Shown here in pieces: positions 2,482 to 20,262 of a DNA stretch of 20,262 nucleotides; positions within the stretch are counted from its first letter, which is position 1, and each line of letters begins with the position of its first letter. The stretch comes from a virus. The notes under the pieces were generated by a model that was not told where the DNA came from, did no database searches, and saw only the letters and a list, made by a program, of their open reading frames with translations. The DNA lies in IMG/VR virus record IMGVR_UViG_3300044614_001074, positions 1-20,262 of that record; one strand, written 5' to 3'. A program made the translations under genes and the position numbers.

Positions 2482-2731
2482 GTACGTCATCCGGGACCGG
2501 CGCCAGGCCCCCCAAGCCCCCGTGCCGACAGTCCGCTTGCGGATCCAGCACCGCGACACCGGCTGCTGGCTGGTTATCGAAGGGGAGCGCACATACTGGG
2601 TGCCATGCGCCCGGCCTGACTGGTCTACGGTGTTTCGCTCGAAAGAGCACGCCGTGGAGGTGACCCAAGCTCTGGGGTTGACTCATAAGGAGTACCGGAT
2701 AACTTCGAGTCTCAGTAAACAACCAACCTAA
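2471..2731 (+). CDS. Hypothetical protein (86 aa), last gene of the small-gene run
   Basis: I choose the ATG at 2471 (MAREYVIRDRRQAP) over the in-frame ATG at 2354, because it has GAGG upstream, keeps the short-overlap pattern of the run and avoids a long overlap with the gene at 2284. The 86-residue product has a strand-rich centre (TVRLRIQHRDTGCWLVIEG, then WVPCARPDW) and ends SSLSKQPT. No family is recognised. The last codons (agtaaacaaccaacctaa) happen to repeat the A/C leader sequence seen before 851 and 1525. A terminator follows about 30 bases later. Confidence 0.6.
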   Translation: MAREYVIRDRRQAPQAPVPTVRLRIQHRDTGCWLVIEGERTYWVPCARPDWSTVFRSKEHAVEVTQALGLTHKEYRITSSLSKQPT

Positions 2732-2762
2732 CGGGGTGTTAGGGTGGGGGGAATTGAATGGG

Positions 2763-2795
2763 CCCCGGCTCCCGAGTGGGATGTCCGGGGTTTTT
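2763..2795 (+). terminator. Rho-independent terminator ending the small-gene run
   Basis: The arms CCCCGG (2763-2768) and CCGGGG (2785-2790) pair perfectly around a 16-base loop and are followed by TTTTT (2791-2795). It separates the accessory genes from the repeat array and the packaging genes. Confidence 0.75.
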
Positions 2796-2897
2796 CATGC
2801 CCAAATCCGGCGTGTCTACACTGGTTTTGCTTCGTTTTGGACTAGTGTAGACACAAGTGTAGACACGCAAGTCACTGATCTACAGCTCTGTCTACAC

Positions 2898-3025
2898 TGT
2901 CTACACTGTCTACACTTCTTTTTGATAAATACCTGAGAACGCAGAACGGGTAGGGGGTGTAGTACCCCCAATGGAATTTTGAGATTTTTAAAATGTTGCT
3001 CCGGGAAGTGTAGACAGTGTAGACA
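2898..3025. repeat. Perfect 21-bp inverted repeat with an 86-bp interior
   Basis: The left arm 2898-2918 is the exact reverse complement of the right arm 3005-3025. Each arm carries two tandem copies of the 8-mer plus the flank gaag/cttc. The extra identity beyond the 8-mers shows that the arms are related as whole units. The interior (2919-3004) is AT-rich and holds a smaller hairpin. Confidence 0.85.
2953..2969. repeat. GGGGGT-ACCCCC hairpin at the centre of the array
   Basis: The arms 2953-2958 and 2964-2969 pair over 6 bp around the loop gtagt. It is not followed by a T tract, so it is not a standard terminator. It lies near the midpoint between the arms of the 21-bp inverted repeat. Confidence 0.6.
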
Positions 3026-3157
3026 AGTTGCAATCGCCTCAAAGCGTGACGGTTGCGTGTCTACAGTTCTCAAAACCGGTGTAGACATTGGCGTAGACAT
3101 TGGCGTAGACACGCTTCTCCGTTGCGATTTTCGCACCACTGCGGCACACTGGTTGAC

Positions 3158-3439
3158 ATGGCACAAACTACTCGCGTCCCCGCATTCACCGAGTCCATGA
3201 CTCGCTTCAAGATCGACGACTTCACCATCCGCATTTGGAGGGAGGAGAAGTCGGCTAAACAGTCTCCGGCGAGCTTGTTGTCGGCCATGAGCTCAGTGCT
3301 CTCCGACATCCGGGACGAGATCCTGGATGACGTCGGCGAGATCGCAAACGCCGTTGGCGCTGTAGACAAGGACATCACCGCGGTGGAAGTCCTCGACAAT
3401 GAGGGGGACGGGGTGGTCCTGTATTTCCAGTGGCCCTAA
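3158..3439 (+). CDS. Hypothetical protein (93 aa) upstream of the terminase genes
   Basis: The frame is open from an ATG at 3053, but that part runs through the repeat array and gives an unlikely Arg/His-rich peptide, so I place the start at 3158 (MAQTTRVPAFTESMTRFKID). No Shine-Dalgarno sequence is visible before either start. The 93-residue product has a strand-like N-terminal part (FKIDDFTIRIWREE), a helical middle (LLSAMSSVLSDIRDEILDDV) and an acidic end with DGVVLYFQWP. It matches no family I recognise. A further exact TGTAGACA (3361-3368) lies inside the gene. It may belong to the late transcript with the terminase genes. Confidence 0.65.
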   Translation: MAQTTRVPAFTESMTRFKIDDFTIRIWREEKSAKQSPASLLSAMSSVLSDIRDEILDDVGEIANAVGAVDKDITAVEVLDNEGDGVVLYFQWP

Positions 3440-3465
3440 GCATCTGAAGTAGACAAACTAGATTT

Positions 3466-3744
3466 ATGGCAAAGGGACGCAAAACAGGAGGGCGCAAGAA
3501 GGGCACGCCGAATAAGCTGGGCCTGTCGCTCAAGGACGGGATCCTAGAGGCTTATCACCGCGCCGGCGGAGTGGAGTACCTCGAGAGCATCGCACGGCTC
3601 GATCCACGGACCTTCTGCGCCCTCCTGGCAAAGGTCCTGCCCACCCAGATCACTGGTGGCGACGGCGCCCCAATCAAGATCGAAGTGGTCACCGGGATCG
3701 AGCGCGCCCCGGATGACCCTCCGATCCATGACGACGAGGATTGA
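3466..3744 (+). CDS. Putative terminase small subunit-like protein (92 aa)
   Basis: The protein opens MAKGRKTGGRKKGTPNK, the basic signature of short phage proteins encoded directly before TerL. A central helical part follows (LEAYHRAGGVEYLESIARLDPRTFCALLAKVLP) and then an acidic tail (APDDPPIHDDED). In the related family the 'F..LL.K.LP' motif is conserved. By position it should recognise phage DNA and bring it to TerL, but 92 residues is short for a full TerS, so this remains a role by context. Its 3' end overlaps TerL by 17 bp. The leader (aaactagatttATG) lacks a Shine-Dalgarno sequence and contains a degenerate repeat copy (AGTAGACA) at about 3448-3455. Confidence 0.65.
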   Translation: MAKGRKTGGRKKGTPNKLGLSLKDGILEAYHRAGGVEYLESIARLDPRTFCALLAKVLPTQITGGDGAPIKIEVVTGIERAPDDPPIHDDED

Positions 3745-5035
3745 CCTACGTTACGACCCCAGGCCATGGCAGAGACGAGTCCACCGAAACCTCAAGCGAT
3801 TCTCTGTTGTCGTCATACACCGGCGTGGCGGCAAGACCGTCATGGCCGTTATGGCCCTCATTCATGCCGCCCTGAAGACTACCAAGACGGAAGCCCAGTT
3901 TGCCTACGTTGCCCCGCTCTTAAAGCAGGCAAAGAAAATCGCGTGGAAGTACCTCAAGCGGTTCACCAAGGAGATCATGGGGATCAAGGTGAACGAGTCG
4001 GAGCTCATGGTGACCTTCCCAAACGGAGCAACGATCACGCTGTACGGGGCTGACAACCCGGACTCGCTGCGCGGGATCTACCTGGACGGGGTGATCCTGG
4101 ACGAGGTCGCAGACATGAAGCCCGATGTGTGGGGCGAGATCATCCGCCCGACGCTGGCGGACAGAAAGGGCTGGGCTTTGTTTATCGGCACTGTCAAGGG
4201 CGTGAACCTGTTGAGCGAGATGTACTTTCAGGCGCTCAACGATGATGAATGGTATGTGGCGAACTACGACTGCTACCAGACCGACGCGCTGCCGGCTGAT
4301 GAAATTGAATCCATGCGCAAGACTATGGGAGAGAACAAGTTCAAACAAGAGATGCTCAACGACTTCAACGCCTCAGTGCCCAATCAGCTCATCAGCTTCG
4401 ATGACGTCAAAGCTGCCGCGGGCAAGCACTTGGATCCCTCGGTGTACGAGTATTCCCCGCGGATCCTTGGCGTGGACGTCGCTCGGTACGGAGACGACAA
4501 GTCGGTGATCTTTGGCCGGCAAGGGCTGGCCTCGTTCGTGCCGCAGACCTACCAAGGCCTCTCCAACATGGATCTGGCGGCAAAGGTGGCTGAGACCATC
4601 GCCACCTGGAAGCCTGACGCGGTGTTCATCGACGCGGGCCGCGGCGAGGGCGTGATCGACCGGCTCCTGCAGCTCGGACACTCGGTGGTCGGTGTCAACT
4701 TCGGGGGCGTGCCGACCAAGCCACAGTTTGCCAACAAGCGCGCAGAGATGTGGTGGGACCTGAACGAGTGGCTCAAGGCCGGGGGCGCTATCCCGGACGA
4801 CATCAGCCTCAAGACCGAGCTGTGCGCGCCCACCTACACCTACGCCAACGCCGCGGGCAAATTCCAGCTCGAGAGCAAGGACGAGATGAAAGCCCGGGGC
4901 CTGCACTCCCCGGACGTGGCCGATGCTCTGGCGTTGACGTTTGCCTTCCCCGTGGCGCCTACCCGGGGCCCAGGGGCAAGCCTGTCTGCCGGCGGGCACG
5001 CGACCACCGAGTACGATCCCTTTGCCATCGCTTGA
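3728..5035 (+). CDS. terL: Terminase large subunit (TerL)
   Basis: TerL is the ATP-driven motor that pushes DNA through the portal and its nuclease cuts the concatemer. The 435-residue product, read from the ATG at 3728 (MTTRIDLRYDPRPWQ), has a Walker A-type motif HRRGGKT (31-37), a Walker B GVILDEVAD (121-129) with the catalytic Glu next to the Asp, and a likely coupling motif around GTVKG (154-158). The RNase H-like nuclease domain shows Asp250 in LGVDVARYGDDKS, Asp302 in AVFIDAGRGEG and Asp396/Asp399 in HSPDVADAL, so all three acidic positions are present. Length and order are normal for a phage terminase of the Terminase_6 type. In-frame ATGs at 3656 and 3713 also exist, but the 3728 start keeps the overlap with the TerS-like gene short. 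None has a Shine-Dalgarno sequence. Confidence 0.95.
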   Translation: MTTRIDLRYDPRPWQRRVHRNLKRFSVVVIHRRGGKTVMAVMALIHAALKTTKTEAQFAYVAPLLKQAKKIAWKYLKRFTKEIMGIKVNESELMVTFPNGATITLYGADNPDSLRGIYLDGVILDEVADMKPDVWGEIIRPTLADRKGWALFIGTVKGVNLLSEMYFQALNDDEWYVANYDCYQTDALPADEIESMRKTMGENKFKQEMLNDFNASVPNQLISFDDVKAAAGKHLDPSVYEYSPRILGVDVARYGDDKSVIFGRQGLASFVPQTYQGLSNMDLAAKVAETIATWKPDAVFIDAGRGEGVIDRLLQLGHSVVGVNFGGVPTKPQFANKRAEMWWDLNEWLKAGGAIPDDISLKTELCAPTYTYANAAGKFQLESKDEMKARGLHSPDVADALALTFAFPVAPTRGPGASLSAGGHATTEYDPFAIA

Positions 5036-5057
5036 CACCAAGAGGTCGAGCTCAACA

Positions 5058-5909
5058 ATGGATACTCAGATGCTCGCCACTGTGCCCACTCTTACTGAAG
5101 CCGACGAGACGCTGCGTGCGCTCGCTGCGCTGCCTGTGCTTGAGCTTGAAAGCGCAATGATGCAGGCGCCTCAGGTTGAATGTCCCGTGGTTCACCACTT
5201 TGGTCCTGGCGTTTACATCCGAGAGGTACGCATTCCTGCCGGCACGCTGGCCATGGGGCATCACCAAAAGTTTGACCACATCAACATTCTGCTTCAGGGC
5301 AAGGTGCTGGTGATGGGGGATAACGGCCCTCAGGTGCTTGAAGCGCCGTTCATGTTTACGGGCAAGCCCGGGCGAAAGTTTGGAATCGTGCTGGAAGATC
5401 TGGTCTGGCAGAACGTGTATGCAACGGAGCTGCGGGACGTGGACGCCATTGAAGACCACTTCATCGACAAGAGTGCAGGCTTTTGCGATTTACAAGAGCG
5501 CATACTGGAACTGCTTAGCGCGGCACACGATAAGGATCGCAAGGACTACGCGCAGCTTATTGACGGGCGCAAAAGTGAAGACGAGATGCTGTGCATTCCA
5601 ATGCCCGACGGATGGCAGGTGACTACAGTACGTCCCTCAGCAATTGAAGGGCTGGGCACATTCATCGACTCGGGCGCTGCTGCCGGAACTGTTATTGGGC
5701 CGATCAGTATCGGCGACAAGCGCACGCCCTTGGGGCGATTTCTTAATCACTCGAGCGATCCCAATGCAGAAGCGCGGCGTGTTGGGAATGATGTGGTTCT
5801 AGTTGCATTGCGAAACATCAGCGGCAAGCGTGGCGGTTTTGCAGGCGACGAAATCACTGTTTGTTACAACCAACATTTTAATCCTCCAACCCAATCGACC
5901 ATATTATGA
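5058..5909 (+). CDS. Cupin-SET domain fusion protein
   Basis: The 283-residue product starts at the ATG at 5058 (MDTQMLATVPTLTEADE); the frame upstream runs inside terL. Residues about 41-130 match a cupin family common in podophage structural regions (HHFGPGVYIREVRIPAGTL, then GHHQKFDHINILLQGKV and PGRKFGI), with possible metal ligands His68, His69 and His74. Residues about 186-271 match a SET protein-lysine methyltransferase domain: IEGLGTFIDSG, then RFLNHSSDPNAE (227-238; canonical R-x-x-NHSC-x-PN, here with Ser for Cys) and GDEITVCYN (263-271), whose Tyr270 would be catalytic. Residues 136-180 link the two. SET enzymes transfer a methyl group from SAM to lysine. Substrate and role are unknown. 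The gene lies between terL and a small gene it overlaps as ATGA. Confidence 0.8.
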   Translation: MDTQMLATVPTLTEADETLRALAALPVLELESAMMQAPQVECPVVHHFGPGVYIREVRIPAGTLAMGHHQKFDHINILLQGKVLVMGDNGPQVLEAPFMFTGKPGRKFGIVLEDLVWQNVYATELRDVDAIEDHFIDKSAGFCDLQERILELLSAAHDKDRKDYAQLIDGRKSEDEMLCIPMPDGWQVTTVRPSAIEGLGTFIDSGAAAGTVIGPISIGDKRTPLGRFLNHSSDPNAEARRVGNDVVLVALRNISGKRGGFAGDEITVCYNQHFNPPTQSTIL

Positions 5910-20167: not shown

Positions 20168-20262
20168 TGGCTGGCTCAATTTTCGACACTCGCCCTCAAG
20201 ATGTAGACATGTCCATGCTTGCCGCGGCGAGCACCACGCCCGACGCGCACGCGAAGGTGATG
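20167..20262 (+). CDS. Next structural gene, 3' end outside the window
   Basis: An ATG at 20167 in a TAATG overlap with the previous stop opens a frame that stays open to the window edge. The 32 visible residues begin MAGSIFDTRPQDVDMSML and continue AAASTTPDAHAKV. The tight coupling and start are like the genes before it, and it is probably another internal virion or tail protein, perhaps a large one. Nothing in 32 residues identifies it. A copy of TGTAGACA lies within it (about 20206-20213, coding for the Asp-Val-Asp part), probably by chance. Confidence 0.6.
   Translation, partial: MAGSIFDTRPQDVDMSMLAAASTTPDAHAKVM

Follow-up and report, generated by a model that had tools for sequence, protein, structure and literature searches.

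The array of short repeats located in front of the packaging genes of this viral DNA is interpreted, with a probability of roughly 0.85, as a phage replication origin in which the 8-bp sequence TGTAGACA would serve as the iteron of a VapE-type initiator, an SF3 helicase-primase resembling P4 alpha and the PriRep of PICIs. It is most likely an origin of the P4/PICI type that is displaced from its initiator gene and lies ahead of the packaging genes; this position before terS, away from vapE, is unusual. The array provides a likely replication origin for a group of uncultured phages represented here largely by incomplete genomes, and arrays of the same 8-mer are widespread and tied to VapE-type helicase-primases.

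The window, that is, the whole stretch of 20,262 bases of the IMG/VR record that was analysed, was recounted, and the ten exact 8-mers, five in each orientation, and the two near copies described in the first-pass annotation were all found within 2813–3111 as TGTAGACA and CGTAGACA, respectively. The arrangement of these copies in two blocks around a 94-bp gap had been missed. The left block (2813–2914) consists of six exact copies of TGTAGACA at 2813 (−), 2846 (+), 2858 (+), 2889 (−), 2898 (−) and 2907 (−), and the right block (3009–3111) consists of TGTAGACA at 3009 (+), 3018 (+), 3058 (−) and 3080 (+) and of CGTAGACA at 3092 (+) and 3104 (+). Read from the gap outward, the orientation of the copies alternates in mirror order on either side. 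The two reported spacing classes hold at these positions, with 9 bp at 2889/2898/2907 and 3009/3018 and 12 bp at 2846/2858 and 3080/3092/3104. The gap (2915–3008) is moderately enriched in AT, at 57% compared with approximately 41% in the flanking DNA, and is the putative melting region by analogy with PICI origins (PMC6092414). The array thus has the many short iterons on both strands that are characteristic of the iteron origin of an SF3 helicase-primase, and the two iteron sets around an AT-rich region that are characteristic of the P4/PICI type, with the AT enrichment being moderate. The gap folds no better than its shuffles (z = −0.8), and a pRN1-like stem-loop origin is not proposed for this reason.

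When up to one mismatch is allowed, the window contains 29 matches against 8.3 expected from dinucleotide shuffles, none of which reached 29, and 300 mononucleotide shuffles of the window gave at most one exact copy per 300-bp stretch. A chance origin of the array is excluded, as the first-pass annotation had argued from its density. The search for equal clusters that it had proposed revealed no second cluster of such density elsewhere in the 20,262-bp window; outlying copies consist of an exact TGTAGACA at 3361–3368 (+), inside the ORF at 3158–3439, AGTAGACA at 3448 (+), and a lone exact TGTAGACA at position 20202.

A terminator had been placed upstream of the array at 2763–2795. A hairpin with a T run is indeed located at 2760–2796 (+) between the upstream genes and the array, with a folding energy of −21.9 kcal/mol (z = −2.3), and is a plausible terminator, but it is not among the sites listed by a consensus scanner. 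Downstream of the array, a 93-aa ORF with no assigned function (3158–3439, +; 98.9% identical in the related contig L104) is followed by the gene for a TerS-like small protein of 92 aa (3466–3744, +; PHROG 11043), whose homologues were found only in the TerL relatives bearing the array, and by the gene for the large terminase subunit, TerL (3728–5035, +; PHROG 2, Terminase_6N). The protein encoded at 5055–5906, downstream of the terminase gene, matches a SET domain (PF00856, E = 7e-6), and a Lar-like restriction-alleviation protein (PHROG 599) is encoded at 851–1120. The gene content upstream of the array is variable: L104 has a cytosine-5 DNA methyltransferase there (240–1418), where the window has small genes.

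The relatives of the window's TerL form two groups, in which the array is kept at a TerL identity of at least 66% and is absent at 59% or less. In L104, whose TerL is 99.5% identical, the spacing of the copies, whose conservation the first-pass annotation had asked about, is the same as in the window, the left block included. In the relatives of at least 66% identity, a two-block array lies upstream of terS in the same block order, partly as near copies. VapE is encoded in the array-bearing relatives G001–G004 and G011, and its N-terminal part in G010, that is, wherever the contig covers vapE. G013–G015, MW202640 and MW202722, with a TerL identity of 59% or less, have neither the array nor VapE, and two complete genomes among the relatives in this range encode a DnaC-like loader instead of VapE. 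Some points stand against the origin reading. The gene vapE is absent from this 20-kb fragment and present in five close relatives and partly in a sixth, and the window's own initiator is therefore linked to the array through these relatives. In addition, the array of the relatives is not directly 3′ of vapE, the distance ranging from 2.4 kb (G003) to approximately 10 kb (G002). The GC-skew check that had been suggested gave no support, as the skew of the relatives shows no switch at the array.

The TerS family shows the same split as the array in the TerL clade, where the array, VapE and the TerS family may have become absent together in one event. For this reason, the TerL clade alone cannot separate VapE from TerS; at the level of sequence comparison, the two are told apart by the distribution of arrays outside this clade. 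Pairs of TGTAGACA copies at a 9-bp distance were sought, and 103 stretches in IMG/VR and at least 118 in GTDB genomes contain one. Since this pattern required the 9-bp pair, the 9-bp preference of the loci is partly built in; the orientation of the copies flanking the gap and the AT content are not. Many of these loci have dense arrays of mixed orientation, and the 8-mer extends across several bacterial phyla, in both phages and elements. A VapE or D5 ORF is present at 24 of the 54 loci with at least five copies, a figure inflated by near-identical C. difficile prophages, compared with 4 of the 124 loci with two copies or fewer; at the other 30 dense arrays, neither was found in the DNA retrieved around them. 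The Pfam families at or beside the arrays of many lineages, cyanobacteria among them, include VapE-like_dom, D5_N, DUF5906, the NrS-1-pol-like domain and Prim-Pol, and the gene order in the C. difficile prophages is VapE, array, VRR-NUC and SNF2/DEAD helicase. Among the distinct arrays with a gap of 70–130 bp, opposite orientations flank the gap in 28 of 32, in 21 of them as in the window, and the gaps of such arrays are richer in AT than their loci (Wilcoxon p = 3e-5).

The neighbor of the array could not be named at L043, L045 and L066; at L045, L062 and L066, each array has eleven TGTAGACA copies and adjoins proteins without a recognisable family. Dispersed four-copy clusters of TGTAGACA occur in Alloprevotella sp. 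OH1205_COT-284 (L112, L118, L122, L136, L144, L156 and L170) and perhaps represent a repeated element. Among the matches listed in a literature search for TGTAGACA, judged by title, there was no replication origin or phage iteron.

The loci of VapE itself were also considered. In 63 of 112 VapE loci, a set that includes array-selected ones and approximately 80 fetched through the VapE protein alone, the 700 bp on the 3′ side of vapE contain an 8-mer repeated more often than in 20 shuffles; where the locus was fetched through VapE alone, the gene is frequently followed directly by iterons specific to the lineage, such as GTAGGACA, GTGGGACA and GGTTGGAC. Between the C. difficile prophage L014 and phage phiCDKH02, VapE is 98.3% identical, with most of the differences in the final 25 or so residues, the putative wing, and all eight TGTAGACA copies of L014 are replaced at the aligned positions by eight TGTTGACA copies in phiCDKH02, the same base being changed in each. 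This natural swap is the strongest evidence for the link between VapE and the iteron. Listeria phage LWP01, whose VapE is 51% identical, has a C-terminus of the phiCDKH02 type together with seven copies of TGTTGACA. Prophage L070 has the same type of C-terminus but a mixed array of four TGTTGACA and three TGTAGACA copies, which indicates either that the specificity is not absolute or that the recombinant is recent. The array of L070 (6858–7114) has the appearance of a recombinant origin with the breakpoint inside the array, TGTTGACA lying to the left and TGTAGACA to the right; recombination thus takes place at this site, and mixed iterons may be tolerated by the code. In a Pseudomonas-type VapE group, the protein has LGWRR where the iteron is TGGGACA, and LGWRK where it is TAGGACA or TTGGACA, in 14 of the 14 confidently labelled cases, so that a single R/K position tracks a single iteron base, although this correlation is supportive only because these proteins are related by descent.

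In the model of the C-terminal region of VapE (pLDDT 88–95), there are three helices and a wing of two strands, and the residues that vary in the swap are placed by alignment after the third helix, in and around the predicted wing. The C-terminal profile matches the solved structure of PICI PriRep1 (7pds) at 1.3e-26; a Foldseek search with the model gave no match below E = 0.001, 7pds being weakly present. In G003, G009 and G010, which belong to two lineages of relatives, a protein of 220–227 aa composed of two tandem copies of this domain is encoded adjoining the array. Such stand-alone proteins, with a long N-terminal helix and adjoining an array, are located at L100:4203–4886, L310:3879–4541 and L414:6994–7656, and no Pfam family matches them above the cut-off; L245 and L246 encode small proteins with a single copy of the domain. 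That a tandem-domain protein controls the origin is a guess.

From these observations we infer that each 8-bp TGTAGACA would be a binding site for the winged-helix domain at the C-terminus of a VapE-type initiator, whose gene would be located elsewhere in the phage genome, outside this contig fragment. The two blocks, being opposite in orientation, would load a pair of helicase hexamers that flank the 94-bp gap, and the AT-enriched gap would melt so that replication could start in both directions. We consider the chances about even for a more general scheme, in which an exchangeable C-terminal wing of VapE reads the 8-bp iteron, replication compatibility changes when a few residues and all iterons are replaced in concert, TGTAGACA is one specificity shared across phyla, and the stand-alone tandem domain of some relatives may regulate the origin. 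The matched changes of C-terminus and iteron in close relatives bring the recognition code within reach of a direct test that uses short synthetic DNA and two near-identical proteins.

The first-pass annotation had left open whether the array consists of replication iterons, of operators or of a terminase site, and the relatives strongly favour the first. Recognition of the array as a pac or cos site by the TerS-like protein, whose gene is 350 bp downstream, would account for its position just before terS and terL and for the co-occurrence of the TerS family with the array within the TerL lineage. However, TGTAGACA arrays in other phages often adjoin helicase-primases, which are most of their nameable neighbors, without this terminase; the iterons change together with the VapE C-terminus; and repeats of this form in P4 and PICIs are replication origins, which makes a packaging site improbable. 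Similarly improbable is a role in controlling late or early transcription, with the array as the operator of a phage regulator such as the tandem-domain protein. The array does sit between transcription units, and G003, G009 and G010 encode a protein with a doubled DNA-binding domain adjoining it, but no promoter-like site was found in 2600–3500, the window revealed no tandem-domain gene, and the copy number and symmetry fit an origin; the late-operator reading found no positive support. Operator function could also be combined with that of an origin. If the array were a host-factor site or a partition centromere with no connection to the phage helicase-primase, the presence of the same 8-mer across several bacterial phyla, in both phages and elements, would be explained. 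The iteron, however, follows the C-terminus of the initiator and not the host, with two iterons occurring within C. difficile phages and one being common to C. difficile and Listeria phages, and this explanation is the least credible of all.

The replication-origin reading can be compared with known systems. In PICI origins, an AT-rich region lies between two iteron sets (PMC6092414); SaPI Rep uses its C-terminal domain to recognise an iteron origin downstream (PMC7581432); and the winged helix of P4 alpha binds origin repeats (PMC4234260). The pri-rep-ori segment of PICIs and SaPIs resembles the window in that two iteron sets flank an AT-rich region and the ori is recognised by the C-terminal domain of Rep. 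In contrast, the PICI ori is directly 3′ of rep, whereas arrays of the window type are kilobases from vapE (2.4 to 10 kb in the relatives), which departs from the strict PICI/SaPI arrangement, and the window comes from a tailed phage that carries structural genes of its own, unlike PICIs and SaPIs. In the Firmicutes phages phiCDKH02, LWP01, phiFL4A and phiSauS-IPLA35, VapE is followed by an intergenic iteron array and then by VRR-NUC and/or a DEAD helicase; compared with the window, the array of such phages adjoins vapE and the iteron sequence depends on the lineage. The records of these four phages list no origin feature at the array. As in the window, the ori and crr of P4 have 8-bp repeats on both strands with pairs 9 bp apart, the annotated type 1 repeats of ori being TGTTCACC/A; P4 TGTTCACA differs from TGTAGACA in the two central bases, and ori and crr are separate in P4, whereas the window has one array before terS. 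The P4 initiator is an SF3 helicase-primase with a C-terminal winged helix, the same as is proposed for the window; the VapE profile found no match in P4 alpha, to which sequence homology is therefore not claimed. Since the P4 ori is also remote from alpha, adjacency to the initiator gene does not define the wider P4/PICI type, to which the array of the window most likely belongs.
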